Shown piece by piece: positions 3,084 through 43,946 of a DNA stretch of 43,946 nucleotides. The stretch's first letter is position 1, and every line of letters starts with the position of its first letter. This stretch comes from Myxococcales bacterium (GTDB taxonomy: Bacteria; Myxococcota; UBA727; VGSZ01), in assembly GCA_023248635.1 (NCBI GenBank), contig JAHFED010000054.1, positions 1-43,946 on the forward strand, written 5' to 3'. The position numbers and the translations under genes are program-made. The notes under the pieces are model-generated. The model worked only from the letters and a program-made list of their open reading frames with translations, was not told the DNA's origin and ran no database searches.

Positions 3084-5768
3084 ATGCGTACCTGGCCCGG
3101 ACTCCTGGTGCTCGCGGCCTCCGCGTCGCTCGCGGGTTGCCGAGGTTGCCTGGAGCCTGCCGTGCGAGCGGTGGCCGCCGAAGGGGAAGGTGAGGATGTC
3201 GACAGCGACAACGACGGGATTCCCGACGCCATCGAGGACAGCGACAGCGACGGCTTCGTCGACGCCGACGAGACCGACCCCCTCGACCCCGACTCCGACG
3301 ACGATGGCATCGAAGACGGCGTCGAGGATCGCGATCAGGATGGTGTCGTCGACGCCGACGAAAGCGATCCGCGCGATCCCGACAGCGACGACGACGGCCT
3401 CGAAGATGGCGTGGAAGACAGCGACCACGACGGCGTCGTCGACCTCGAGGAGACGGATCCGCTGAAGCCCGACAGCGACGGCGACGGCGTTTACGACGGC
3501 ATCGAGGACAAAGACCGCGACGGCGACGTCGACCCCGATGAGTCGGACCCAAACGATGCCGATAGCGACGACGACGGCACCCCCGATGGCGAGGAGAAGC
3601 TCGACTGCGGGGCCGCGAGGGTCGCGTCCCTGGGCGCCAACAACGGCGACACCACTGGCGGCGCTGCGATCCGTGACGACGTCTTCGACGCCGCCTCGGG
3701 TTTGCCCTGCGTGTCGCTCGCCGCGCCGGTGGAGCTGTGGACCTACACCCCCACGCAGCCAGGTACGGTGATGTTCACCGTCGCTCCCACCAACGGCGAC
3801 CGTCTCGGGGTGCTGATCCGTGGCCCCGACTGCAACACGGACATCAACCAGACCTGCACCTATGACGACAGCGAGGACGATCAGGGCAGCATCGCGGTCG
3901 GCGCGGAGCCAGGGGAGGCGATCAGCCTCATCATCGGCGGCTTGGAGAGCGTCGACGTCGGCGCCTACGTGCTCACGGTGGAAGAGTCCTCGCGCACCTG
4001 CGCCAGTGGAAGGCCGATGTCCTTCACCCAGGACACGGCGACGGCCATCACCGACAGCGGGACGGCCGGCAGCACCATCTCCGTCGGCAAGGTCGCCACC
4101 GTGAACGACGTCGGAGCCACCCTCAACTCCCTGACCTACAGCTCCACCGGGGATCTGACGGTGAGCCTTCTCTCCCCCGCCGGCACGGTGGTGAACCTGT
4201 CCAGCGGCAACGGCGATGGCGGAGACAACATGCTCGCCACGGAATTCAGCGACGCCTGCCTCGAGCCCTTCGCCTCGCAGGGGGAGGGCGATGCACCGTT
4301 CACTGGGTGCTTCACACCGGAAACGCCCTTGGCGGCCTTGGCCGGCGAAGAGGCCAACGGCGACTGGACCCTGGGCGTGGACGGCGCCGCCGCCGCCGGC
4401 TCCCTCGACAGCTGGACCCTCGACCTTTGCGTCGCGAACGAGCGACGGCTCGCGGGCTGTGGCTTCGGCGTCCCCGCCTGCTCCGAGGAAGGGCAATGCC
4501 AGGCCTACGCCAACCAGAACCTGCCTGTCGGAACCGGAGGCAGCTGCGTGACGGGCTGTTGTGTGTTCGCCGCCGAGGGCGAGGGCGAAGGTGAGGGTGG
4601 AGGCGAAGGCGAGGGAGGCGAAGGCGAGGGGGGAGGCGAAGGCGAGGGCGGCGGCGAAGGCGAGGGTGGAGGCGAAGGCGAGGGCGGCGGCGAAGGCGAG
4701 GGTGGAGGCGAAGGCGAAGGCGAAAGCGTGGGCTGCCAGGACGGCGTCGAAGTGGTCGACGGCGAGGAAACGGGCTCCTTCAATTCCCTTGCCCTAGATG
4801 CGGAGGGGAGGCTGCACGTCGCCTACGCGGATGCGTCGGCGCCCCTGGGCTACGCGCGCCAGGGTGTCGACGGGAGGTGGACCCTGGAGACGGTGGACGG
4901 GGCGAGCGTCAATGGGCACCCAGCGATCGCCGTTGGTGGGGGGGCCAGCCCAGAGGTGCACGTGGTCTATCCCGGCCCGGGCGGCGGTCTCGCCCATCGG
5001 GTGCGCAACCCGGTGACCGGGATCTGGACGGAGCCCGAGGGCGCTCTACCAGAGGTCTCGCTGACCCGGGTGCGCGCCCTGGCGATCGACAACGACGGCG
5101 GCTTGCATCTGCTCTACACCGACTCGGAGGTCGACGTCGGCATCGTGTCGACCTACGCGTTCAAGCCGCGCGGAGGCGACTGGGCCAGCAGCGAGCGGGT
5201 GGCGGTGTTGGCGCAACCCGGCGTGTTCTACACGGGCGAAGAGTCGATGGCCCTCGACCGCTTCGGCGCGCCCCACGTCGCCTACCAGGACGACCTCGAC
5301 GGCAACCTCGACGATTTGGGCTACGCCTTCCGCGACGACGGCATCTGGATCAGAGAGATCGTGGCCAGCGAGGGGTCCGTCGGTGGCCACAACGCGATCG
5401 CCGTGGATCAAGGCGGCACAGTGCACATCGCCTATACCGACGACGCGGTCTTCGGTCTTCGGCACGCGCGCCTCAACCCCGACTCTGCTGTTTGGATCAC
5501 GCTGCCGCTGGACAGCGCCGGCAACCCCGACGTGGTGGCGCTGACGGTGGGCGCGAACAACGTCGTCCGGGCGGCGTATCGCACCCGGGAATTCTGCCGT
5601 CTGCGCACCGCGACGTTCACCGGCACGGCTTGGGCCCCCGAGCTGGTCGACGATGACCACTGTGCCGTGGGCGAGGTCTCCGTCGTCGTCGACGCCGCCT
5701 TTGCGGCCCACATCGTGTTCCACGGTTTGAATGGCGGCGACCTGCTGCATGCGACGGTCTGCCCCTGA
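3084..5768 (+). CDS. Lipoprotein with TSP3 calcium-binding repeats, P-domain, Gly-Glu linker and beta-propeller
   Basis: Predicted 894-residue lipoprotein. The start is chosen at MRTWPG, six bases after GGAGG, giving a signal peptide with a good lipobox (SLAGC). Directly after it come about five thrombospondin type-3-like repeats (DSDxDGxxDxxE pattern), which in known families bind calcium. A PPC-like beta-sandwich and a proprotein-convertase P-domain-like segment follow (TSLTY-type strand, NGDWTL, GSLDSWTLDLC). A Cys-rich patch leads into a roughly 50-residue (GEGE/GGGEGE) stretch, then a C-terminal beta-propeller with repeated LHVAY/VHIAYTD strands resembling BNR/Kelch-like repeats. No catalytic residues are recognised, so an adhesive or scaffolding surface role is inferred. 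The TGA stop lies in the first bases of a short hairpin repeat. Confidence 0.85.
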   Translation: MRTWPGLLVLAASASLAGCRGCLEPAVRAVAAEGEGEDVDSDNDGIPDAIEDSDSDGFVDADETDPLDPDSDDDGIEDGVEDRDQDGVVDADESDPRDPDSDDDGLEDGVEDSDHDGVVDLEETDPLKPDSDGDGVYDGIEDKDRDGDVDPDESDPNDADSDDDGTPDGEEKLDCGAARVASLGANNGDTTGGAAIRDDVFDAASGLPCVSLAAPVELWTYTPTQPGTVMFTVAPTNGDRLGVLIRGPDCNTDINQTCTYDDSEDDQGSIAVGAEPGEAISLIIGGLESVDVGAYVLTVEESSRTCASGRPMSFTQDTATAITDSGTAGSTISVGKVATVNDVGATLNSLTYSSTGDLTVSLLSPAGTVVNLSSGNGDGGDNMLATEFSDACLEPFASQGEGDAPFTGCFTPETPLAALAGEEANGDWTLGVDGAAAAGSLDSWTLDLCVANERRLAGCGFGVPACSEEGQCQAYANQNLPVGTGGSCVTGCCVFAAEGEGEGEGGGEGEGGEGEGGGEGEGGGEGEGGGEGEGGGEGEGGGEGEGESVGCQDGVEVVDGEETGSFNSLALDAEGRLHVAYADASAPLGYARQGVDGRWTLETVDGASVNGHPAIAVGGGASPEVHVVYPGPGGGLAHRVRNPVTGIWTEPEGALPEVSLTRVRALAIDNDGGLHLLYTDSEVDVGIVSTYAFKPRGGDWASSERVAVLAQPGVFYTGEESMALDRFGAPHVAYQDDLDGNLDDLGYAFRDDGIWIREIVASEGSVGGHNAIAVDQGGTVHIAYTDDAVFGLRHARLNPDSAVWITLPLDSAGNPDVVALTVGANNVVRAAYRTREFCRLRTATFTGTAWAPELVDDDHCAVGEVSVVVDAAFAAHIVFHGLNGGDLLHATVCP
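4573..4728 (+). repeat. In-gene low-complexity tract encoding (Gly-Glu)n
   Basis: Imperfect hexa/dodecanucleotide repeats of the GGCGAGGGCGAA type encode the Gly-Glu linker of the TSP3 lipoprotein. Similar tracts lie in two other lipoproteins of the window (32229-32485 and 35722-35988). The tract length is likely to vary by slippage. Confidence 0.85.
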
Positions 5769-5780
5769 ACGTCAAAACTC

Positions 5781-5850
5781 CAAGACGCGCCAGCGTCTTG
5801 AACATCCAAACTTCAAGACGCGCCAGCGTCTTGAACATCCAAACTTCAAG
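5781..5850. repeat. 33-bp-period GCCA-loop hairpin repeat, two perfect units
   Basis: Two perfect 20-base hairpins, stem CAAGACGC/GCGTCTTG and loop GCCA, lie at 5781-5800 and 5814-5833. Each is followed by the spacer AACATCCAAACTT. The stop codon of the upstream gene (5766-5768) occupies the TGA of a degenerate TTGAAC spacer. A third imperfect unit with the loop in reverse (TGGC) lies at 5961-5980. The array sits between the 3' ends of two convergent genes, so it may act as a bidirectional terminator, but there is no T-tract. Confidence 0.85.
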
Positions 5851-5960
5851 CTCGACCCGAGGGCAAGGGGGTGGGAGGGGCAGCAGCGACGTGCGCACCA
5901 CCCTTCTCTGTGACCCCGCTTCCGCCTCAGGCGAAGCGACCGCTTGCAGCATCGGAACTT

Positions 5961-5980
5961 CAAGCCGCTGGCGTGTCTTG
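5961..5980. repeat. Degenerate GCCA-loop hairpin next to the kinase 3' end
   Basis: CAAGCCGC and GTGTCTTG pair imperfectly around a TGGC loop, preceded by AACTT as in the neighbouring units. It lies 8 bases beyond the stop codon of the kinase gene (5988) and is probably its 3' hairpin. Confidence 0.55.
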
Positions 5981-5987
5981 ATGCGGC

Positions 5988-10030: not shown

Positions 10031-10978
10031 GTGGCCCCATGGCTCGCCTGGCTCCTGATCGCTGCCCCCGTGCCGCCGGCGACGACGAGCGCTTTGCCCG
10101 CACCAGCTCCGACGACGGTTTTGCCAGCCCCCCCGACCACAATGATCCGCGTGCCGGCGGGATCTTTCTGGCGCGGCAGCGACGACGCCCGCCGGCCTGA
10201 TGAAGCTCCCCGTCATCGCGTGCAGCTGAGCGCTTTCGAGCTCGACGAAACGCTGGTGACCATCGCCGACTACCGCGCCTTCGTCGACGCCACCGGCCAC
10301 CGCACCTCGGCCGAGCGCTTCGGCTACGCCCTGGTCGCGGTCGAGGGGATGAAGGATTGGGCCTGGCAACGCGCAGCGCACGCGAGCTGGCGACGTCCTT
10401 TTGGCGACCTCATGGAGTACGCCGTCAGCGACGATCTGCCCGCCACCGCCGTGGGCCACGACGACGCCAACGCCTACTGCCACTTCTTGGGCAAGCGCCT
10501 GCCCACGGAGGCCGAGTGGGAATACGCCATGCGCGCTGGCAGCAGCGATCGCTACCCCTGGGGACCGACGCCGCGCCGCCCCGACGGCCGCTACGGCCTC
10601 AACCACTGGCAGGGCCCCGCCGAGGGTGAGGAGCACAGCAAGAACCTTCTCGACGACGGCTTTGCGTATTTGTCCCCCGTGCGCGCGTTTCCGCCCAACG
10701 CCTGGGGCTTTTACGACCCCGTGGGCAACGTCTGGCAGCTGGTGGCCGACTGGTACGCCCCCGACACCTACAAGAGAGCCGCAGCCGCCGGCGTCGTCGT
10801 CGACCCCCAGGGTCCCCGCTTCGGAAAAAAGAGGGTCACCCGCGGTGGCTCCTGGTGGTGCAGCGCGCGCACCTGCTCCGGCTTTGGGCTGCAGTACCGT
10901 GGCAAGAACGTGCCCGACGCGCCCTTCAACAACGTCGGCTTCCGCTGCGCCCGCAGCATCGCCCACGACAAACCATGA
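10031..10978 (+). CDS. Formylglycine-generating-enzyme (SUMF1) family exported protein
   Basis: A 315-residue protein with a GTG start and signal-peptide-like N-terminus (MAPWLAWLLIAAPVPPATTSA), then an FGE-sulfatase domain: IRVPAGSFWRGSD, DETLVTIADYRAFVDATG, RLPTEAEWEYA, NVWQLVADWY and RGGSWWC. Known FGEs oxidise a sulfatase cysteine to formylglycine using two cysteines spaced C-x4-C; here RGGSWWCSARTC keeps that pair. The later NVGFRCAR ends the domain normally. It lies 9 bases after the FHA gene. The alkaline-phosphatase-superfamily enzymes in this window lack the CxPxR substrate motif, so its target is unknown. FGE-like domains also occur as non-enzymatic binding modules. Confidence 0.85.
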   Translation: MAPWLAWLLIAAPVPPATTSALPAPAPTTVLPAPPTTMIRVPAGSFWRGSDDARRPDEAPRHRVQLSAFELDETLVTIADYRAFVDATGHRTSAERFGYALVAVEGMKDWAWQRAAHASWRRPFGDLMEYAVSDDLPATAVGHDDANAYCHFLGKRLPTEAEWEYAMRAGSSDRYPWGPTPRRPDGRYGLNHWQGPAEGEEHSKNLLDDGFAYLSPVRAFPPNAWGFYDPVGNVWQLVADWYAPDTYKRAAAAGVVVDPQGPRFGKKRVTRGGSWWCSARTCSGFGLQYRGKNVPDAPFNNVGFRCARSIAHDKP

Positions 10979-11090
10979 GGGAGGCGCCCGCGCCTTGAAC
11001 CATCGCGCTTCAAGACGCGCCAGCGTCTTGAACAACCAAACCTCAAGATGGGCCGGCGTCCGAACGATCAGCACTTCACGACGCGGGCGC
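10979..11090. repeat. Degenerate 33-bp-period hairpin array after the FGE gene
   Basis: One perfect unit lies at 11011-11030 (CAAGACGC, GCCA loop, GCGTCTTG). Diverged units are at 10980-10995 (AGGCGC/GCGCCT), 11044-11063 (GCCG loop) and about 11077. The unit starts at 11011, 11044 and 11077 keep the 33-base period seen at 5781. The array begins 2-3 bases beyond the TGA stop of the FGE gene. Confidence 0.75.
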
Positions 11091-14496: not shown

Positions 14497-15408
14497 ATGT
14501 TGAAGAAGCGACTGGGCGAGCTCCTGATAGAGCGCAACCTCATCGATGCAGACCAGCTGAACGCTGCGCTGGCCCACCAACGACAGTGGGGCATGCGCCT
14601 GGGAACGGCCTTGGTGGCCAAGGGCTTCGTCGCCGAAGGAACCCTCACCCGCGTGCTCTCGGAGTCGCTGGGCTTTCCCATGGTCGATCTGGCCAAGGTC
14701 GTCGTCGATCAAAAGGCCCTGGCCCTCGTACCCCGCCGCACCTGCGAGGCCCACGCCGTGCTGCCACTGGCCGTCAAGGAGCAAGAGAAGGGGCGCAAGG
14801 TCTTGCTGCTGGCCATGGCCGATCCGCTCAACGCCGCCGTCGTCGACGAGATCAGCTTCACCACCGACAGCATCGTCAAGCCCGCCATCGCGCAGATTTC
14901 CTCGCTCGAGCAAGCAGTTCGCCGCTACTACCTGGGGCAACGCGTCGACATCGCACCACTGAACTTTGACTCCAAGGGTGCGCCCTCCTTCCTCTCTGAT
15001 GGCGACGAGCCGATGACCATCACGGGCCGCGGAGCCGACGGCGATCGCGTCGTCGTCGGGCGGGAGGCCGTCGGCGCTGTCGAAGCCCGGGGCATCGATC
15101 TCGGACCCCCCGAAGACACCGAGCCATCGCTGGCCCTGGCTCCGCACCCCCTGCCCATCGATTTTCTCGGGCAGGGGACCGGCGTCTTCGCCATGCCGGC
15201 AAGCAGCGCGCCCCTGGAGATCGTGCGCGCCACCCACACCGCCGAAGGAGCTGCCGTCGACGACCTGCTCTCGATCTCCCGCGCCGCCGACACCGAGCAA
15301 ATCGAAGCGCTGGAGAAGAAATTCTGGGCGCTCATTCGGGTGCTCGCGCGCCGCGGCCTGGTCACCAAAGAGGAATTTCTCGCCGAGCTTCGCGCCGGCG
15401 ACGACTGA
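14497..15408 (+). CDS. Stand-alone MshEN (GspE/PilB N-terminal) domain protein
   Basis: A 303-residue protein with AGGAG upstream of the ATG. Residues 1-155 match the N-terminal domain of type II secretion/type IV pilus ATPases (LGELLIERNLIDADQLNAAL, RLGTALVAKGFV, LLLAMADPLNAAVVDEI, SLEQAVRRYY). In MshE/PilB relatives this domain can bind cyclic di-GMP. No Walker A/B ATPase domain follows; the remaining 150 residues are acidic and of low complexity, ending in a short helix (FWALIRVLARRGLVTKEEFLAEL). It probably acts as a regulator or receptor rather than a motor. It follows the cNMP-domain transporter in the same direction. Its stop codon's last base begins repeat copy B. Confidence 0.82.
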   Translation: MLKKRLGELLIERNLIDADQLNAALAHQRQWGMRLGTALVAKGFVAEGTLTRVLSESLGFPMVDLAKVVVDQKALALVPRRTCEAHAVLPLAVKEQEKGRKVLLLAMADPLNAAVVDEISFTTDSIVKPAIAQISSLEQAVRRYYLGQRVDIAPLNFDSKGAPSFLSDGDEPMTITGRGADGDRVVVGREAVGAVEARGIDLGPPEDTEPSLALAPHPLPIDFLGQGTGVFAMPASSAPLEIVRATHTAEGAAVDDLLSISRAADTEQIEALEKKFWALIRVLARRGLVTKEEFLAELRAGDD

Positions 15409-15615
15409 TCCCCGATCTCGCTGAACTTCGACCGCGGAGCGGTCTCGTTCATCGCCGTCGGGGATGCTCTTCTGGGAGGTCTGGTGCAGACCTCCCCCCG
15501 CGCCGGCGGAGCCGGACGCGGGGCCCAACTCCGCGTTCCGCGGGCGCGCTTCACGCGCATCATCCCCCGTCTTTCCCATCTCGGAACGCGGTCGAACATC
15601 AAGCGGACGCGGGAT
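15408..15615 (+). repeat. Interspersed ~210-bp hairpin repeat, copy B
   Basis: Complete 208-base copy, bounded by ATCCC at the start and GGGAT at the end. It carries the GACCGC/GCGGTC, GGGAGGTCTG/CAGACCTCCC and CCGGC/GCCGG hairpins, then CCGCGTTCC paired at distance with GGAACGCGG. It lacks six bases (CCCACC-type) present in copies C and D. The first A is the last base of the preceding TGA (15406-15408). Confidence 0.92.
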
Positions 15616-15692
15616 GACAAAAAACGCAGGGCTACTTGAAGCGGTTGGGCTCAGAGATCGTAAACGCGCACCGGTCCCCCGCCATTGATGAT

Positions 15693-20710: not shown

Positions 20711-20924
20711 ATCCCGCGTCCGATTGATGTTCGACCACGTTCTGAGATGGGAAAGACGCGGGATGATGCGCGTGGAGCGCGCACGCGGAACGCGGAGTTG
20801 GTGGGGGGCCCCGCGTCCGGCTCCGCCGGCGCGGGGGGAGGTCTGCACCAGACCTCCCAGAAGAGCATCCCCGACGGCTCTGAACGAGACCGCTCCGCGG
20901 TCGAAGTTCAGAGAGATCGGGGAT
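20711..20924 (-). repeat. Interspersed ~210-bp hairpin repeat, copy C
   Basis: Complete 214-base copy in reverse orientation, with the same hairpins as copy B. Its outer arm next to TGAAC reads CTC, pairing with GAG after GTTCA, unlike other copies. It is the only copy not at the 3' end of a gene: on its strand no gene ends to its right, and the neighbouring gene on each side starts here. Confidence 0.9.
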
Positions 20925-26635: not shown

Positions 26636-26691
26636 GGTTCATCGCCTGGCGGCGATGAACCCGTAGACAAGTCATCGCCGCCAGGCGATGA
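26636..26691. repeat. Two-unit TCATCGCC hairpin array with TGGC/GCCA loops
   Basis: GGTTCATCGCC/GGCGATGAACC around TGGC (26636-26661) is followed, 33 bases on, by TCATCGCC/GGCGATGA around GCCA (26672-26691). The spacer is CSTGTAGACAA-like after each. The stem differs from the other arrays but the loop is the same. Confidence 0.82.
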
Positions 26692-26701
26692 ACGTGTAGA
26701 C

Positions 26702-26734
26702 AATTCACCGACACGCAAAGCGTGTCGGTGAATT
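26702..26734 (-). terminator. 15-bp hairpin directly after the flotillin stop codon
   Basis: AATTCACCGACACGC pairs perfectly with GCGTGTCGGTGAATT around AAA. On the minus strand it begins one base beyond the TAA stop, in a TAATAATT context. It is the strongest candidate for a transcription end of the yqiJ-yqiK unit, though no T-run follows. Confidence 0.65.
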
Positions 26735-26735
26735 A

Positions 26736-28982
26736 TTACTTGACGCCGAGCTTCTTGGCGGCTTCAGCGAGGCCCATCAGCTTGGTCTTTTCGTCGCCGT
26801 TGGCCTCCCCTGCGAGCTTCACGATCAGGGCTGCGAGGGAGAGGTCTTTGAGCTCTCCCGCATTGACCGCCGGTCGGTGCAAGACATCTTTGATGTCGCC
26901 CGCGAGGCTGCGCACACCCGTGAGGTAGTCGTCGGCGACGGCGTGCACCGTGCTCGACTTCTGCACCACGGCATCGATGGACTTGCCCAAAGAGATGGCG
27001 TTCACGAAGCGGTCGAAGAAGGCGCCGTCGCCACCGACGATGTCGATCTTGGCGTTCTTGAAGGCCTCGCCGAGTACCCGCGACTGTTCGGCGGCGATCT
27101 TGGCTTGGATCTCCAGCCCCTGCATCTGAATGAGGCGGTGGTTCTCGAGCTTGAGGCGGAACTCCTCGTGCTCGCGCGCGGTGCCCTCCATGGACTTCAT
27201 GGCCACCAGTTTCTCGGACAGGCCCTTGGCCTCGGCCGACATCTTGTTGTGCAGGGCTCCGGCTTCGGCGGCCCCCTTCTCGCGAATGTTGCTGGCGTCG
27301 GCGAGGCCGGTCTTTTCGACGGCGGCGGCGCGGGCTTCGGCGACGCGGGCCTGGGCCATGCCGATCTTCTCATTGGCGCTGCCGTCGGCCTCTTTGCCGC
27401 GGGCTTCGGCGAGCAGGCGGGTCTCGATGACGTTGGCGTCGGCGGCGCCGCGGGCTTGCACTGCGTGAGCCTGGGCCTCTTGCACCTCGACCAGGGCCAG
27501 TCCCTTTTGTTTCTCGCCCTCGGCCTGGGCCAGGAGCTTCTCCTTTTCGACGCGGGCTTCGATCATGCCGCGCTTCTCGTAGGCGCCGGCGTCGGCCTCT
27601 TTGACCTTGACGGCGGCCAGGCCAGGAGCTGCGGCTTCGGCTTGGATGCCTTCGGCGCGCCGCACCTTGGCGCGGGACTCGCGGTCGGCGGCCTCGAGGT
27701 CGGCTTCGGCCATGATCAGCCGCTCCTTGGCGAGGTGGGTGGCGGCCTTCTCCTGGGCTTCGGCGCCCTTGATGTCTTTGACCAGCTTCTCTTGGGCCTG
27801 GGTCTCAGCGACCATCAGGGCCGAGTCGCGGTTGCGCTTGGCCTCTTCCATCACTCGCACACCTTTGATGCGCTCTTCTTCTTCGGCGACGGTGCGGTCG
27901 ACGGCGATGCGGGCGCGCACGGTGTCTGCGATCTCCTTCTTCTGCACCTCGAGGAGCTTCTCTTTCTCGATGCGCGAGAGCTCGACCTCTCGCTCGCGCG
28001 AGATGGCCTCGAGCTGGCGATCCTTGGTGACGCGCTCGGTTTCGACGCCGACGACGCGCTCGCGGTTCTTGCCCGCGACCTCAACCTGCCGCAGCTTGTT
28101 CTGTTCGGCGATCTGCAGCTCCTCCTCGGTGCGGATGCGGGCGGTGTTGCTGTCGAGCACGGCCTTCTGCACCTCTTTTTCGGTCTCTGCGCGCTCCCGG
28201 GCCTGGGCGACGACGGCTTCGCGCTCGCGGGCCGCAAGGGTGGCCTTTCGGCTGGCCTCCTGCTTGGTGATGACCTCTTGAGCGGCGGTGTTCTGCTGCT
28301 CGATCTGCATCTGGGCTTCATTGCGCAGGCGGTTGGTCTCGACCTCTTTCTCCTTCGTGATCTTGGTGATGGCGCGGATGCCCTCGGAGTCGAGGGTGTT
28401 TTCGGGATCGAGAGCCTCAAGAGGCGTCTGCTCGAGGTAGTCGATGACGACGTCGGTCAGCTCGTAGCCATCGAGGTCGGTGGTGATGTGCGTGAAGATC
28501 TTCTTCCGGAATTCGGCACGATCAGAATACAGCTGAAGGAAGTTCATCTGGTAGCCCACCGTCTTGAGGGCCTCCGAGAATTTCGCCGAAAAAAGTGTAT
28601 GCAGGGTTTCGACGTGGCTGGCGCGAGCGGTGCCGATGCGGGCCGCCACCTGCTTGACCTTCATGGCGTCGTGGCTCACCTGAACGAAGAAGGCGACCTT
28701 GATGTCGGCGCGCATGTTGTCCATGCAGGTGAGGCCTTCACGACCGCGGCGCTCGATCTCGATCATCTTCACACTGAGATCCATCACCTCGGCGCGGTGG
28801 ATGATCGGCAGCACCAACCCACCTGTGAAACTCACTGAGATCTCTTCACCCGTCTTGTTGTTGATCAGGGCCTGACCCGGCGAAACCTTGATGTAGAATT
28901 TCTTCACCATGACGGCAACGCCGGCAATGAAGATGAAGAAAGCGCCGGTGCCGCCGAGAATGGTGATGACGATCGGGTTCAT
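26736..28982 (-). CDS. yqiK: Flotillin-like SPFH protein (YqiK type)
   Basis: A 748-residue membrane-anchored scaffold protein. One N-terminal hydrophobic helix (IVITILGGTGAFFIFIAGVAVMV) is followed by an SPFH domain (FYIKVSPGQALINNKTGEE, MDLSVKMIEIERRG, NMRADIKVAFFVQV). Then comes a very long Ala/Glu/Lys/Arg coiled coil, residues ~220-640, with many AEA.EK-type repeats, and a short C-terminal domain. Flotillins organise membrane microdomains. GAGGA lies six bases before the ATG. The coiled coil is longer than in E. coli YqiK, which has about 550 residues. It follows the YqiJ-like gene by 43 bases, matching the known yqiJ-yqiK pairing. Confidence 0.9.
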   Translation of the reverse strand: MNPIVITILGGTGAFFIFIAGVAVMVKKFYIKVSPGQALINNKTGEEISVSFTGGLVLPIIHRAEVMDLSVKMIEIERRGREGLTCMDNMRADIKVAFFVQVSHDAMKVKQVAARIGTARASHVETLHTLFSAKFSEALKTVGYQMNFLQLYSDRAEFRKKIFTHITTDLDGYELTDVVIDYLEQTPLEALDPENTLDSEGIRAITKITKEKEVETNRLRNEAQMQIEQQNTAAQEVITKQEASRKATLAAREREAVVAQARERAETEKEVQKAVLDSNTARIRTEEELQIAEQNKLRQVEVAGKNRERVVGVETERVTKDRQLEAISREREVELSRIEKEKLLEVQKKEIADTVRARIAVDRTVAEEEERIKGVRVMEEAKRNRDSALMVAETQAQEKLVKDIKGAEAQEKAATHLAKERLIMAEADLEAADRESRAKVRRAEGIQAEAAAPGLAAVKVKEADAGAYEKRGMIEARVEKEKLLAQAEGEKQKGLALVEVQEAQAHAVQARGAADANVIETRLLAEARGKEADGSANEKIGMAQARVAEARAAAVEKTGLADASNIREKGAAEAGALHNKMSAEAKGLSEKLVAMKSMEGTAREHEEFRLKLENHRLIQMQGLEIQAKIAAEQSRVLGEAFKNAKIDIVGGDGAFFDRFVNAISLGKSIDAVVQKSSTVHAVADDYLTGVRSLAGDIKDVLHRPAVNAGELKDLSLAALIVKLAGEANGDEKTKLMGLAEAAKKLGVK

Positions 28983-28994
28983 GCAGGTCCTCTT

Positions 28995-29029
28995 CGAGAC
29001 GCGCCGGCGTCTCGATGGTCAAACTTCAG
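28995..29029. repeat. CGAGACGC hairpin unit between yqiJ and yqiK
   Basis: CGAGACGC pairs with GCGTCTCG around GCCG (28995-29014), followed by ATGGTCAAACTTCAG. It is the 33-bp family unit with paired substitutions relative to 5781 (AA to GA on one arm, TT to TC on the other), so the stem is kept. The stop TGA of the YqiJ-like gene (29026-29028) lies in the TTCA of this unit. Confidence 0.75.
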
Positions 29030-29772: not shown

Positions 29773-30127
29773 GCCGTCGACGATCTACGACAGGTCCCGG
29801 CGCGACGGAAGCACGCGTTTGGGCCGTGCCAACGGCCCAAACCATCGGCACTTTGAGCCGTGCCAACGGCGCAAAGCCGGAAGCACTTTGAGCCGTGCCA
29901 ACGGCGCAAAGCAGGAAGCACTTTGAGCCGTGCCAACGGCGCAAAGCAGGAAGCACTTTGAGCCGTGCCAACGGCGCAAAGCAGGAAGCACTTTGAGCCG
30001 TGCCAACGCGCAAAGCAGGAAGCACGTTGAGGCGGGGCCCGCGACGCAAAACGATTCAGTACGTTGCTCGCAAAGCTCAGGATCTGCCAACGAGCAGAGT
30101 TGTGCTGCGGCGAGGTACACCCAGCGG
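29773..30127. other. Divergent intergenic region filled by a 35-bp hairpin array
   Basis: The roughly 355 bases between the YqiJ-like start (minus) and the L-domain protein start (plus) are dominated by the tandem hairpin array at 29818-30045. GAGG at 30112-30115 may serve as ribosome-binding site for the plus-strand gene. Promoter boxes were not recognised. Confidence 0.55.
29818..30045 (+). repeat. Tandem 35-bp GCCA-loop hairpin array, six units plus a remnant
   Basis: Hairpins start at 29818, 29852, 29887, 29922, 29957 and 29992. The first has a perfect stem (TTTGGGCCGT/ACGGCCCAAA). The next five read TTTGAGCCGT/ACGGCGCAAA with one A-G mismatch, and the last has lost one G. All loops are GCCA. 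The spacer is GCAGGAAGCAC. A decayed seventh unit ends near 30045. The same unit appears reverse-complemented at 38570. Confidence 0.92.
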
Positions 30128-30832: not shown

Positions 30833-32778
30833 CCAAGCACCGAGCCGAAGCCGTCGCCGCTGACGCCGCCCGTGAGCGGGGTGATTTGGGAGATCACGCA
30901 GTTGGCGCCGATGTCGAAGACGGCGACGGAGTTGTTTCCGGGGGCACCAGCGGCGAGGCGAGCGACGTTGGCACTGCCCACGCGTGGGCCCAACCCTCTC
31001 AACGCGGTGCCGAGCTTGGACAAGGCGGCGCCGCCGCGGACACAGGTGGGCGACATGTTCCCCGTCGCTGGGATCTCGGCGGCGTAGAGCACGGCCACCG
31101 AGCCTTGACCGCCGTGATCCAGAGGTGCCCCAATGGCCAAGCCGCGGTTGGTGCCCGCCGCGAAGGGTGCGAGGGCGCTGCCCCACAGTGCGTCCGCCGT
31201 GATGGCGGGGGGCCGCGTGACCTGCCGGAGTGCATCGTAGTTGGGCGAGAGCGCCAGCAGCACCAGATCGGCGGCCCCCAAGGCCACGTCGTCGATGCCG
31301 TCGTTGTTGAGATCCCCAGCCGTCACGATGGCGACGCCCAGGTTGGGCAGCGCGGGCGGCACCGGGACCCAGTCGAAAATGGGCGCCGGTGATGGGCCGC
31401 TGAAGGGGCTGATGCTGCTGAAGACGACGACCCCCAGCACGGAACCGCTGCCGGTGACGTTGCCTGCGATCTGGATGGCGACGTCTTCGAAGCCGTCGTT
31501 GTCGAGGTCGGGGACCCGGGCCGCGCTCCCGAGTCCCAGCGCGGGCCCCTGGGTGCCAGCGATGCCAGCGTTGGCGGGAAAAATGATGCCCCGACGCACG
31601 ACCAGCTCGCTGACACAGCCATCGGGGGCGCAGGTTCCATCGCCGCAGAAGTCGGCAGGCAGGCAGCCGTCGTCGTCGACGCAACTGCCCGGCCGGTGGG
31701 GGACGCAGCTGGGGTCGGGCATCATCGCAGCCTCCGCGCCGTCGCCGACCCCCGGCATGCCCGCGAAGACGACGCTCTGGGCAGCGCCCCCGGCGAAGCT
31801 GGAGCGTGTGGCGACCAAATTCTCACCGATGAGACCAATGCCAACGACGGCGGAGGCGCACTGCGGATCGCAGTCCGGGTTCAGCCACCACAGGAGCCCC
31901 CCGGGGGCCGATGTCGAGGCCGAGAACGCGATGTGCTCCGTGGGGCTGGGCTCGCCCACAAAGATGCTGCGCCCCGACACCGTCGGCACCGGATCGAGCG
32001 CAATGGCCGCGCCGAAGCGTCCGCGCACATTCTCCAGTCCCGAGCCGTTGCCAACCAAGACGTCGCCGACGTCGAAGGTTCCAGCTGCGTTGCCCAAGAA
32101 CAGAGTCACGCTCGGCACCGGCACTGTGTGGGGAAAGGTGCTGGGACTCTCGAAGCTCGACGGAGCGCCCACCACCAGATCGGGCAAACAGTCGCCGTTG
32201 ATGTCGGCGCCGAAGGGATCATAGCACTCGCCCTCTCCTTCTCCTTCTCCTTCTCCTTCTCCTTCTCCTTCTCCTTCTCCTTCTCCCGCTTCGCCCTCGC
32301 CTTCGCCTTCGCCTTCGCCCTCGCCCTCGCCCTCTTCGCCTTCGCCCTCGCCCTCGCCCTCTTCGCCTTCGCCCTCGCCCGCTTCGCCTTCACCCTCACC
32401 CGCTTCTCCTTCGCCCTCACCCGCATCGCCTTCGCCCTCGCCCGCTTCTCCCTCTCCTTCGCCTTCGCCCTCGCCTTCGCCTTCCGTGGCCAGCACACAC
32501 CCGAAGGCGCCGACGTCGGGATCCAGGCTGCAAACACGACCCAGAGGGCACGCAACCCCATCGACGGCGCAGCGGAGCACGCAGCGCTGAAACACACAGA
32601 CTTGTTCGTCGACGACGCAGGGGTGATCCGCTTCGTTGCACTGGGCGTCGTCGAGATCCGTTTCGTGAAGCACGCACGCCGGCAGGCAGCAGGCGAGAAG
32701 CAGCAGCACGACCGGGGCGTGGTGAGCGCGATCCCGGCGTTCATCCGCATCGAACGACGGACAAACACCGAGCGTCAT
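30826..32778 (-). CDS. Lipoprotein with nine-Cys module, Gly-Glu stalk and FG-GAP repeats
   Basis: A 650-residue lipoprotein with lipobox CCLPAC. After the lipidated Cys comes a roughly 55-residue module with eight further cysteines (DHPCVVDEQVCVFQRCV...FGCV), homologous to that at 36232. About 85 residues of Gly-Glu repeat follow, then FG-GAP/integrin-alpha-like repeats (DINGDCLPDLVVGAP, DLDNDGFEDVAI, DLNNDGIDDVAL), which form calcium-binding beta-propellers. No catalytic motif is seen, so adhesion or ligand binding is inferred. Its ATG overlaps the TGA stop of the upstream TPR/TSP3 gene (ATGA), indicating translational coupling. Confidence 0.88.
   Translation of the reverse strand: MTLGVCPSFDADERRDRAHHAPVVLLLLACCLPACVLHETDLDDAQCNEADHPCVVDEQVCVFQRCVLRCAVDGVACPLGRVCSLDPDVGAFGCVLATEGEGEGEGEGEGEAGEGEGDAGEGEGEAGEGEGEAGEGEGEEGEGEGEGEEGEGEGEGEGEGEGEAGEGEGEGEGEGEGEGEGEGECYDPFGADINGDCLPDLVVGAPSSFESPSTFPHTVPVPSVTLFLGNAAGTFDVGDVLVGNGSGLENVRGRFGAAIALDPVPTVSGRSIFVGEPSPTEHIAFSASTSAPGGLLWWLNPDCDPQCASAVVGIGLIGENLVATRSSFAGGAAQSVVFAGMPGVGDGAEAAMMPDPSCVPHRPGSCVDDDGCLPADFCGDGTCAPDGCVSELVVRRGIIFPANAGIAGTQGPALGLGSAARVPDLDNDGFEDVAIQIAGNVTGSGSVLGVVVFSSISPFSGPSPAPIFDWVPVPPALPNLGVAIVTAGDLNNDGIDDVALGAADLVLLALSPNYDALRQVTRPPAITADALWGSALAPFAAGTNRGLAIGAPLDHGGQGSVAVLYAAEIPATGNMSPTCVRGGAALSKLGTALRGLGPRVGSANVARLAAGAPGNNSVAVFDIGANCVISQITPLTGGVSGDGFGSVLGQ
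32229..32485 (-). repeat. In-gene low-complexity tract encoding (Gly-Glu)n
   Basis: On the minus strand, GAAGGAGAAGG- and GAGGGCGAAGG-type hexamers encode an uninterrupted Gly-Glu stalk with occasional Ala or Asp. The left part is homogeneous (GAAGGA), suggesting recent expansion. Confidence 0.88.
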
Positions 32779-33822: not shown

Positions 33823-36232
33823 CCTCGACGGAGTAGCCAAACAGGCTGCCACTTGATTGGGGCCACACCACGAGCTCCGCGGTCGATTGCGGGGGCAGGG
33901 CGAGCTGCACCAAGGTGGCGCCGCCGACGCTGAAGTCTGCCGACTGCACGCAGTCCTCCTGGGTGCTGTTGCGATCAAACGAGGGGGCGTAGGCAGCGAC
34001 GACAGTGCCGGTTCCGGGGAGAGTCGGCGTGCCGGCGACGACGTTGGCGGTGCCGGCGCCGGCGTTGGTGATCGAATACCTGTGGAACGCCACATCGACC
34101 ACCGAACCGCTCTGGCAGTTGCTGCTGACCCGTCCGTGCGACTGCGGGGACCCGGCTGCAAAACTGTCGGCGACGGAAAAGTCGGTGGCGGTCAGGAGGG
34201 GCTCGCAGAGATTGTCGTTGGCGCACCCCAACCCCAGCGCACAGATCTGATCGCTGGCGTTCACGAGACACGCTTCGCCGTCATCGCCAACGGTGGCAGT
34301 GGTGCACTGGAAGGCGCGAGGCGTCGGTCCACCCAGGCAGGCGAGGTCTCTGGGACACACCGCGCTGAGGCTGTTCGGCACGCACGAGTCATTGGGAGCC
34401 AGCAGCGTGACGGGGTCCTCGCCGACGTCGAGGGCATAGGTGCTCCCGTTGCTCGCCGAGACGATGATCGTGACCCGGTCCCCCGAGAAGAGCAGCTGCG
34501 ACGCCTGCGTGTCGCTGGTATTGCGAGAGCAGGTCAGTTCGTCGTCGCTGCTGCCACAGGCCCCCAAGCGAAGACTGACGGCGACGTCCCCGGACATCTC
34601 ATGGGCTCGCGCGTGGAACACGGCGGCCGGGGCGGCGACGACGTATTCGAACACCTGATCGCGGGTGTTGGTGGTGAAGCTGCAGCTCTCGTCAAAGGCG
34701 TTGTTGGCGCTTTGCGCATTGGCGGCCGTGGACCCGATCGAGAGGGTGGGGGCGGCGGCGCACAGCGGCGTGACGACGTCAGTGCAGACCTCGAAGCCGG
34801 CGGTGCCGACGCAGCGTGTCCCAGCCTCGCAGATCTGGTCGAAGCCGAAGGGCTGGCAGCGCTGGCCCTCGGCGACGAGGATCCGCTCAGTGATGCTCAC
34901 CCCGACGGACGCTGACGACGGCGGGGGCGGACCCGCCGGGCCGACGGCGGCGACGAAGGGGATCTCAAAGAGCGCAAGGCGGACGTCGTCGCCGGCGTGG
35001 AGACTGGGCAGGACGAGACTGCTCGAGCTGCTGATCTGACAGCGGCCCGCCACGAAGTCGCGGCAGTCGGACCTTTGCTCGATGACGAAGCTCCCTGACG
35101 TCGTCACCACCAGATCACCGTCGCGGGTCATCGTGTGCACGACGGCGTAGCCCTCGCTCAGGTTTGCGCAGGCCGGCGGCGTGGTCTCTCCGATCGTCGT
35201 GGTGGGGAGGAAGGTGAAGCCCGTGTTCAGCCGCAACTCCGCCAGGCAGAAGGCCTCGAGGGGGTCGGCGCAGACGCCGTTGACGCAGGTGTTGCCGCCG
35301 CCACAGGCGAGGAAGCTGCCGCAGGTGTCGCCGAGGCCCACCTCCACCGGCTCGACGATGGCCAAGGTGTAGGTCCCGCTCGAGCCAAAAGCAGCGGAGT
35401 CGACCACCAGTGTGACGGTGTCGTCGTCGTCGGGGAGATCGAACAGCATCGTGTCCACGCCCACATTGGCGCTGCACCCCTGCTCGAGGGGCGACACACA
35501 AGATGCGATCGCGAAGAACCCCACCTCCAGCGGCGATGAGGTCGAGCGGACCACGGCCGCGATCAGTGCGCCGGGACGGCTGGCCGTATAGCTCCACACC
35601 TCCTCGCCGCCGGAGCCGGCCGTGTCACAGCTCCCGTGCAGCGCCGTGCCGACGCCGAGAATGCGGCCCTGGTTGTCGCCGGACCGCGCGATCCGGGGCG
35701 CCGCACAGGTGCCGAGAGGGGGCTCACCTTCTCCTTCTCCTTCTCCCTCGCCTTCACCTTCACCTTCTCCTTCTCCTTCTCCTTCACCTTCACCTTCACC
35801 TTCACCTTCACCTTCACCTTCACCTTCACCTTCACCTTCTCCTTCACCTTCACCTTCACCTTCTCCCTCTCCTCCTTCTCCTTCTCCTTCTCCTCCTTCG
35901 CCTTCGCCTTCGCCTTCGCCTTCGCCTTCGCCTTCGCCTTCGCCTTCGCCTTCGCCTTCGCCTTCGCCCTCTCCTTCGCCTTCACCCTGGGGAAGAGGCA
36001 CGACGCAACCAAACCTCTCGGTGTCGAGGTCGATGGTGCAAATGCGACCAGCAGGACAGGGCGCGCCCTCGCCTTCGCACTCCGCCACACAACGACCCAA
36101 GACGCAGACGTCGCCGCTGACGACGCAGGGGTCGCCATCGTTGTTGCAGGCGGCGTCGTTGAAAGAGATCTCCGGCAGCAGGCAGGCCGGCAACACGCAC
36201 GCAAGGAGCAACAAGGCGCGGTGCACGATCAC
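33782..36232 (-). CDS. Lipoprotein with nine-Cys module, long Gly-Glu stalk and PPC-like domains
   Basis: An 816-residue lipoprotein with lipobox VLPAC, from a GTG start preceded by GGGGGTGA. The N-terminal module aligns with that of the lipoprotein at 32778, with all nine cysteines in register (DPCVVSGDVCVLGRCV...FGCV). A Gly-Glu stalk of nearly 90 residues follows, then at least two PPC-like beta-sandwich domains separated by small Cys-rich knots (GSFLACGGGNTCVNGVC; RCQPFGFDQICEAGTRC). No enzyme motif is recognised. It lies upstream of the TPR/TSP3-FG-GAP pair on the same strand, separated by 161 bases of repeat. Confidence 0.85.
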   Translation of the reverse strand: MIVHRALLLLACVLPACLLPEISFNDAACNNDGDPCVVSGDVCVLGRCVAECEGEGAPCPAGRICTIDLDTERFGCVVPLPQGEGEGEGEGEGEGEGEGEGEGEGEGEGEGEGGEGEGEGGEGEGEGEGEGEGEGEGEGEGEGEGEGEGEGEGEGEGEGEGEGEGEGEGEPPLGTCAAPRIARSGDNQGRILGVGTALHGSCDTAGSGGEEVWSYTASRPGALIAAVVRSTSSPLEVGFFAIASCVSPLEQGCSANVGVDTMLFDLPDDDDTVTLVVDSAAFGSSGTYTLAIVEPVEVGLGDTCGSFLACGGGNTCVNGVCADPLEAFCLAELRLNTGFTFLPTTTIGETTPPACANLSEGYAVVHTMTRDGDLVVTTSGSFVIEQRSDCRDFVAGRCQISSSSSLVLPSLHAGDDVRLALFEIPFVAAVGPAGPPPPSSASVGVSITERILVAEGQRCQPFGFDQICEAGTRCVGTAGFEVCTDVVTPLCAAAPTLSIGSTAANAQSANNAFDESCSFTTNTRDQVFEYVVAAPAAVFHARAHEMSGDVAVSLRLGACGSSDDELTCSRNTSDTQASQLLFSGDRVTIIVSASNGSTYALDVGEDPVTLLAPNDSCVPNSLSAVCPRDLACLGGPTPRAFQCTTATVGDDGEACLVNASDQICALGLGCANDNLCEPLLTATDFSVADSFAAGSPQSHGRVSSNCQSGSVVDVAFHRYSITNAGAGTANVVAGTPTLPGTGTVVAAYAPSFDRNSTQEDCVQSADFSVGGATLVQLALPPQSTAELVVWPQSSGSLFGYSVEVNSDAPVSVSRIE
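35722..35988 (-). repeat. In-gene low-complexity tract encoding (Gly-Glu)n
   Basis: Blocks of GAAGGT, GAAGGA and GAAGGC hexamers (minus strand) lie in homogeneous runs, each run apparently amplified separately. The tract encodes the stalk of the lipoprotein at 33782. Confidence 0.88.
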
Positions 36233-38569: not shown

Positions 38570-38733
38570 TTTGAGCCCTTGGCCCGGCTCAAAGGGCTTC
38601 CTGCTTTGCGCCGTTGGCACGGCGCAAAGGGCTTCCTGCTTTGCGCCGTTGGCACGGCGCAAAGGGCTTCCTGCTTTGCGCCGTTGGCACGGCGCAAAGG
38701 GCCTCCTGCTTTGCGCCGTTGGCACGGCGCAAA
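38570..38733 (-). repeat. Tandem 35-bp GCCA-loop hairpin array, five units (reverse orientation)
   Basis: Hairpins start at 38570, 38605, 38640, 38675 and 38710. The last four have a perfect 10-bp stem (TTTGCGCCGT/ACGGCGCAAA) around TGGC on the plus strand (GCCA on the minus strand). The first differs but is still paired at its outer end (TTTGAGCC/GGCTCAAA). Spacers read GGGCTTCCTGC. The array fills most of the divergent gap between the kinase (38468) and the HugZ-like gene (38753). Confidence 0.92.
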
Positions 38734-42893: not shown

Positions 42894-42916
42894 TCGCCGC
42901 GGGATGACTCGTTCTG

Positions 42917-43130
42917 ATCCCCGACGGCGATGAACTTCGACCGCGGAGCGGTCTCGTTCATCGCCGTCGGGCATGCTCTTCTGGGAGGTCTGGTGCAGAC
43001 CTCCCCCCGCGCCGGCGGAGCCGGACGCGGGGCCCCCCACCAACTCCGCGTTCCGCGGGCGCGCTTCACGCGCATCATCCCGCGTCTTTCCCATCTCGGA
43101 ACGCGGTCGAACATCAAGCGGACGCGGGAT
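42917..43130 (+). repeat. Interspersed ~210-bp hairpin repeat, copy D
   Basis: Complete 214-base copy. Its first hairpin is nearly a perfect palindrome: GACGGCGATGAAC on the left pairs with GTTCATCGCCGTC on the right, whereas the other copies are only partly paired there. It lies 23 bases after the DUF1003 gene's stop. The string CGCGGGATGA just before it (42898-42907) looks like the tail of a further copy. Confidence 0.92.
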
Positions 43131-43173
43131 GAGCTCATGAGCAGGCTGTGACATCGAGTTCCTAGCCTCAGGT

Positions 43174-43818
43174 ATGGATCCTCAGCGCACCAAGCCCAAG
43201 CTCCGCGGGCACTCGCACCAGGCCGCATTTTTTGCGGCCTTGGGAGCGGGCGTGGTCTTGATCGCCGCTGCCCCGACGCCGCGGACGACGCTGGCCGCCG
43301 CCGTCTACGTCGTCACCCTGGTCTTGCTCTTTGGCATCAGCGCCCTGTACCACCGGCCCTATTGGCCAGCCCGCCCGCGCGAGGTCTTGGCCCGCCTCGA
43401 CCACGCGATGATCTTCATCTTCATCGCCGGTAGCTACACGCCCTTCTGCTTGCTTGGGCTCTCGCCAGAGACCGGGAAGTTCGTCCTCGTCACCATGTGG
43501 ATCACGGCCCTGGTGCTGGCGTCCACCAAAGCAGTGGGGCTGCGCATGCCGCGCTGGCTGATGGCGAGCAGCTATGTCGCCATGGGGTGGTTTGCGGCGT
43601 GGTCGATGCCCGAAGCGGCCACCATCATCGGCGTCGCTGGCACCGTGCTCCTCTTCGTCGGCGGCGTGCTCTATACGATTGGTGCCGTCATCTTCTGGCG
43701 CAAAGCCCCCAACCCGTTGCCGGGATTGTTCGGCTATCATGAGGTTTTTCACCTGCTCGTGATTGCCGCCGGGATCGCGCATTTCATTGCAGTAGCCCGC
43801 TTGGTCTTCGCGGGCTAA
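43174..43818 (+). CDS. Hemolysin-III / PAQR family membrane protein
   Basis: A 214-residue protein with seven predicted hydrophobic helices and the family residues: SALYHRPYW (Ser, His), ARLDHAMIFIFIAGSYTP (Asp, His) and GYHEVFHLLVIAAGIAHF (two His near the end). In adiponectin-receptor relatives these His/Asp bind zinc and support lipid-amide hydrolysis; bacterial members (YqfA, Hly-III) are linked to membrane fluidity, and haemolysis is not a general property. It is flanked by repeat copies D and E in the same orientation. Its TAA stop is the start of copy E. Start ATG 43174 follows a CAGG. Confidence 0.88.
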   Translation: MDPQRTKPKLRGHSHQAAFFAALGAGVVLIAAAPTPRTTLAAAVYVVTLVLLFGISALYHRPYWPARPREVLARLDHAMIFIFIAGSYTPFCLLGLSPETGKFVLVTMWITALVLASTKAVGLRMPRWLMASSYVAMGWFAAWSMPEAATIIGVAGTVLLFVGGVLYTIGAVIFWRKAPNPLPGLFGYHEVFHLLVIAAGIAHFIAVARLVFAG

Positions 43819-43946
43819 TCCCCGATCTCGCTGAACTTCGACCGCGGAGCGGTCTCGTTCATCTCCGTCGGGGATGCTCCTCTGGGAGGTCTGGTGCAGA
43901 CCTCCCCCCGCGCCGGCGGAGCCGGACGCGGGGCCCCCCACCAACT
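43818..43946 (+). repeat. Interspersed ~210-bp hairpin repeat, copy E (cut by window end)
   Basis: First 129 bases of the element, starting at the last A of the TAA stop of the PAQR gene (43816-43818). The three main hairpins are present. The outer arms of the first are less paired than in A, C and D. Confidence 0.92.

Follow-up and report, generated by a model that had tools for sequence, protein, structure and literature searches.

The window analysed here is the whole of contig C93 (43,946 nucleotides), which belongs to the 6.53-Mb draft genome (135 contigs, 96.7% complete) of a Myxococcales bacterium and carries short hairpins of three stem families, A, B and C (Table 1). The earlier note had described three such families with a period of 33-35 bases and a GCCA loop, or its complement TGGC, in every unit. 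All three stems are present at the sites that it listed, although the first C stem begins at 26638-26639 rather than at 26636. The loop is as described in the A, B and C hairpins of the window (the TGGC of the B hairpins at 38570-38733 being GCCA read on the other strand), except in the unit at 28992-29017, where the paired stem substitutions that had been pointed out were confirmed but the loop is GCCG. Likewise, the period holds for A (33) and B (34-35), but C units elsewhere form a C-D composite with a period of about 63. The two C units near 26638-26659 (TGGC) and 26672-26691 (GCCA) lie in mutually opposite orientation, the stems of the B units at 29851-29981 contain an A/G mismatch, and one base is missing from the sixth B unit (about 29991-30014). 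The window also holds low-complexity arrays of 6-bp units, mostly within long open frames.

Table 1 Hairpin units and other repeats in the window.
Feature	Position	Strand	Remarks
Family A, two head-to-tail units TYCAAGACGC-GCCA-GCGTCTTGAA	5779..5835	+	Hairpins 5779-5802 and 5812-5835; period 33; linker AACATCCAA; right end ACTTCA; convergent genes either side
Degenerate family A unit	5960..5981	-	
Lone family A unit	11009..11032	+	Loop GCCA; 31 bp past the stop of gene 10142-10978
Family C hairpin TTCATCGCC-TGGC-GGCGATGAA	26636..26661	-	GCCA loop on - strand
Family C hairpin	26670..26693	+	Loop GCCA, then linker AACGTGTAGAC and AATT
D-type hairpin of C-D composite (AATTCACCGACACGC / GCGTGTCGGTGAATT)	26700..26736	.	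GTAG two bases before foot
Family A unit, compensated stem (CGAGACGC/GCGTCTCG)	28992..29017	+	Loop GCCG
Family B array of six units (five full, the last damaged)	29817..30031	+	Hairpins 29817-29981; loop GCCA; period 34-35; divergent genes either side
Family B array, five units	38570..38733	-	Loop TGGC; period 35; divergent genes either side
Low-complexity arrays (CGAAGG, TCGCCT, TCACCT)	4574-4728, 32228-32484, 35724-35986		6-bp units
Dispersed repeat of about 215 bp	1-119, 15405-15617, 20711-20924, 42914-43132, 43815-43936		Hairpin GGGAGGTCTG-CAC-CAGACCTCCC

The three families share a common layout, TT-stem-GCCA-stem-AA, followed by a linker of about 7-10 nt and then by ACTT (A and B) or AATT (C). 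Units are usually spaced at 33-34 (A), 34-35 (B) or 63 (C); the wider spacing of C comes from a second hairpin, D, with which it alternates. Different families also share clusters in a single register (e.g. BBBAAAAAAA, AABBA), and the same linkers occur in A and in B (e.g. AACCATCAGA|ACTT and AACCATCGGC|ACTT). The left flank of an array is unique as far as the TT, and the right end retains the linker and ACTT, with CA nearly always next in the case of A units. In one case D and C modules flank a B array at a junction that is found uninterrupted elsewhere. A CRISPR array, with identical repeats and unique spacers, was considered and rejected, as the linkers are themselves repeated. Elsewhere in the genome, AATT-bounded C, D and E modules make mosaics (L145:10357-10597 and others), and a B-variant array of about ten copies with a shortened stem (TTTGCGCCGTTGGCAGGCGCAAAG) and a period of 34 occupies L139:17360-17710. 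The D hairpin has a GAA loop inside GCGAAGC, a sequence described as an extra-stable DNA mini-hairpin (PMC4686876).

Statistics were collected on fetched stretches of the genome, 1.86 Mb in the largest unit count. In these 1.86 Mb, 207 clusters together contained 443 units, of which 203 were A, 152 B and 88 C; 122 clusters were single units, and the longest comprised 19; neighbouring units had the same orientation in 219 of 236 cases and the opposite orientation in 17. By a home-made gene call, the majority of units were intergenic. Genome-wide, the exact 16-base A core occurs 290 times, the exact 14-base B core 280 times, and A 24-mers with at most two mismatches 398 times. Extrapolated to the whole genome, there would be well over a thousand copies of this 33-35 base palindromic repeat, the figure of roughly 1,500 units being only approximate because the fetched sample was partly picked from contigs with matches. 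A, B and C thus fit the general description of REPs as palindromes of 20-40 bp that are present in more than 100 copies and are mostly intergenic. No match to Rfam was found in the window, and the viral contigs searched contained no copies.

Among relatives the repeat is confined to this genome. A pattern allowing any stem (AAGT, gap, TT, 8 free bases, TGGC, 8 free bases, AA) gave 362 matches here, against one for its reversed control and 0-5 per genome in 194 other genomes of the phylum, those of the same genus included. Units were absent from 540-550 kb sampled from two same-genus genomes, and a near-exact A pattern had no match anywhere in these two. Orthologous sites in same-genus genomes lacked units, including that of the 28992-29017 unit in both genomes, the flanks being too diverged for base resolution. 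We therefore read A, B and C as a new, lineage-specific set of REP-like repeats, the expansion of which is real, recent and restricted to the species.

Insertion could be followed to the base by means of a paralogous control, the dispersed repeat of about 215 bp that has five copies or parts in the window. This repeat is itself present in at least 40 copies at 93-98% identity in the genome and in essentially none in same-genus genomes, and has no match in Rfam. Nearly all copies carry the site GGTCGAACATCAAGCGGAC or a close variant, and a filled copy in L139 reads GGTCGAACATCAAGACGCGCCAGCGTCTTGAACATCCAAACATCAAGCGGAC, in which a 33-nt A unit has been inserted. A variant repeat has GAGCGAACTTCAACTGGAC in two empty copies inspected individually, and BLAST listed further copies that match, whereas its filled copies in L228 and L138 have the site plus a 33-nt A unit; these two may descend from one event. 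At both site types exactly one 33-bp unit was inserted at W-TCA with zero bases lost, and single-unit A insertion is therefore precise. Filled sites show a direct repeat of 8-9 nt around TTCA or ATCA. At the L139 site, both copies of this direct repeat have the A of the target where a T is usual, a hint that target sequence may come to lie on both sides of the unit, while a comparison of left and right flanks over all arrays against permutation gave no target-duplication signal. Both base-resolved A site types agree with an IS200/IS605-type rule, that is, insertion 3' of a short target that is repeated at the right end with no duplication beyond this; for B the agreement is less clear, and the W-TCA rule is not cleanly seen. 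An A unit in a retron cassette was tried as a further empty-site test and gave an ambiguous boundary. These single-unit insertions, resolved by empty paralogous copies, together with hundreds of intergenic copies and covarying stems, bear out the REP-like dispersal that the earlier note had suggested.

The same note had proposed a RAYT transposase acting on the hairpins, and this was not supported. A PF01797 profile search of the genome gave no match (an E. coli control matched), and a search with NF047646 gave one, at 43 bits against a cut-off of 80. The match is a 317-aa protein (L151:961-1914; G000:C9:359456-360406) with a Y1-like domain and a DnaA-type C-terminal helix-turn-helix. Active class 2 proteins have a HUH motif and Y---NP (PMC6006769); in this protein SEVR takes the place of HUH and WVHLWP that of Y---NP, so that HUH, Tyr and Asn are lost, and its aligned relatives show comparable losses. 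Most genomes of the order have one close homologue of it, and these include some that lack the repeats. A subgroup with a DnaA_C-type C-terminal domain has been described, for which REPs were not found nearby (PMC6006769). A C unit lies 17 bp past the gene, about what the density of C predicts by estimate. The protein is a candidate domesticated RAYT. An intact RAYT flanked by its own REPs, the arrangement expected of RAYT-mobilised REPs, was not found in the genome, nor did a self-BLAST of 884 kb for multi-copy insertion sequences reveal an autonomous element; in a draft that is 97% complete in 135 contigs, an intact Y1 transposase could be missing from the assembly. The genome also encodes a type XIII retron (L028:14497-19016, in G000:C11; PADLOC RT_XIII 477 bits, SWIM_XIII 479 bits). 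It includes three non-coding cassettes; their long hairpins differ in the stem while the surroundings are conserved, and an A unit is present in one cassette. The retron's reverse transcriptase was rejected as a mobiliser, since it belongs to the retron and no link to the units was shown. It is possible, though we hold it doubtful, that the 33-bp units enter W-TCA sites through an activity that is neither RAYT nor known Y1, the sole RAYT homologue being a vertically inherited and putatively dead Y1-DnaA_C fusion.

Because the insertion targets share 8-9 nt with the unit junction, homology-driven insertion is an alternative to transposition after TTCA. Such spread would occur during replication, through template switching driven by microhomology or through single-strand annealing, without a dedicated enzyme. 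It would account for base-resolved insertions at these 8-9 nt matches in a draft genome where the PF01797 and NF047646 searches found no intact Y1 gene, and quasipalindromes have been described as hot spots of template switching (PMC7202029, PMC8794818). However, most single copies share just about 4-6 nt with their site, and restriction to one species, when the replication machinery of the relatives is ordinary, suggests a species-specific factor. On balance we regard enzyme-free spread as rather unlikely.

To examine the shared loop, tetraloop hairpins with a perfect stem of at least 8 were collected from a 444-kb sample; GCCA formed the loop in 57 of 92, versus none of 20 in a second-order Markov-shuffled control, which puts GCCA loops far above chance. 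In a larger sample of this genome the count was 132 of 213, and 540 kb of the two same-genus genomes contained no repeated hairpin family with GCCA. Loops that were random in sequence across the genome would have counted against the idea; instead, GCCA is carried by 84% of the 443 units. A constant loop combined with drifting stems is, however, what a comparison between families shows; inside A, B or C the loop columns are conserved no better than those of the stem. Comparison of the stems of A (TTCAAGACGC/GCGTCTTGAA) and B (TTTGAGCCGT/ACGGCTCAAA) shows six of ten pairs to be identical and the other four compensated. Across 48 distinct A and B sequences the covariation score was 0.459, compared with 0.191 when shuffled and at most 0.193 when slid, and 90.6% of cells were paired, with both-side changes in 98 cells versus 39 in shuffles; these pair counts include inherited changes and show that pairing is kept, not the reason for it. 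Given the compensated pairs and the shared linkers, the common GCCA loop of A and B is best read as common descent, which does without loop recognition. The stability of GNNA loops was also considered as the cause of GCCA and rejected, since the GCCA strand is just 0.3-0.4 kcal/mol better in a DNA model and the variants do not favour GNNA.

Recognition of the loop by a protein or RNA, as the earlier note had argued, is thus not borne out: besides the even conservation of loop and stem columns, a tally of the loop-variant table gave 29 single substitutions in the two middle bases and 27 in the end bases. The same data weigh on the idea that the units are binding sites of a dedicated protein that recognises the GCCA loop or hairpin, whether for the nucleoid, for segregation or as a DNA uptake signal. 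Although high copy number, a fixed 33-35 bp period and the shared loop are what such sites might show, the number of units per site ranges from 1 to 19, orientation shows no bias relative to GC skew (p = 0.74) and the units are species-restricted, which leaves this role very improbable.

RNA signals selected at gene ends (terminators, stabilisers of mRNA 3' ends or processing sites) are just as hard to credit, for although copies are mostly intergenic and convergent gaps are slightly over- and divergent gaps under-represented (21 convergent, 40 codirectional and 13 divergent, where these gaps make up 16, 54 and 30% of intergenic bases), this tilt is weak and changes with the grouping of units (17, 43 and 15 when regrouped), divergent genes flank large arrays (the two B arrays of the window among them), units in codirectional gaps run with the genes in 17 cases and against them in 26, no T tract follows the hairpins, and same-genus orthologous sites lack the units. 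Effects of the units on neighbouring genes are probably incidental.

Among known systems, IS200/IS605 elements insert following a short fixed sequence that recurs at the element's own end, have a hairpin near the end and make no ordinary target duplication. At the two base-resolved site types A units may follow a similar rule, with a hairpin and without ordinary target duplication, but the A, B or C unit is just 33-35 bp with one hairpin and no transposase gene. GTAG REPs with RAYTs (Di Nocera et al. 2013, PMC3733652; Bertels & Rainey 2011, PMC3116915) resemble A, B and C as short intergenic palindromes in hundreds of copies, with several compensated stem families per genome, short loops and lineage-restricted expansions; by contrast, A, B and C have ACTT or AATT flanks with no GTAG at the hairpin foot, and no intact RAYT was found. 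Of the companion D hairpin, 54 copies do carry GTAG two bases ahead of the foot, which gives the C-D composite at least one hairpin of the GTAG type. CGTC REPs (PMC3733652) likewise have 8-9 bp stems whose first two pairs are A/T and loops of 4-5, and no dedicated transposase is known for them. Flank tables for A, B and C show no unpaired CGTC beside the stem, and in CGTC families head-to-head dimers predominate and head-to-tail ones are negligible (PMC3733652), whereas A, B and C are head-to-tail. That orientation also separates them from REPINs, which are inverted REP doublets, and from BIMEs, which alternate in orientation but likewise assemble palindromic modules of different kinds into mosaic clusters that keep a single register.

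We consider it likely that A, B and C make up a single superfamily of REP-like mobile DNA, spreading as 33-35 bp units and building head-to-tail arrays. The spreading unit would be the GCCA-loop hairpin with its short linker and ACTT or AATT. A lone A unit enters a W-TCA site with nothing deleted, the repeated bases being confined to the W-TCA surroundings at both unit ends, and units stack head to tail at the 33-35 bp period. By analogy with Y1 (IS200/IS605/RAYT) elements, insertion may proceed via single-stranded DNA folded into the hairpin. Arrays could then grow by slippage, by unequal exchange or by renewed insertion beside an existing end; correction through template switching, selection acting on the folded strand, or both may keep the stem paired, and new stem families would arise from paired changes while loop and linker are inherited.

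How REPs spread without a RAYT is an open question, as has been said of CGTC REPs (PMC3733652). Here, a single genome combines several hundred copies of recent origin with arrays in head-to-tail order, clusters of mixed stem family and empty sites resolved to the base, which together make the insertion rule directly readable. Compensated stem families with a constant loop and linker also provide a test case for the maintenance of palindromes by template switching.
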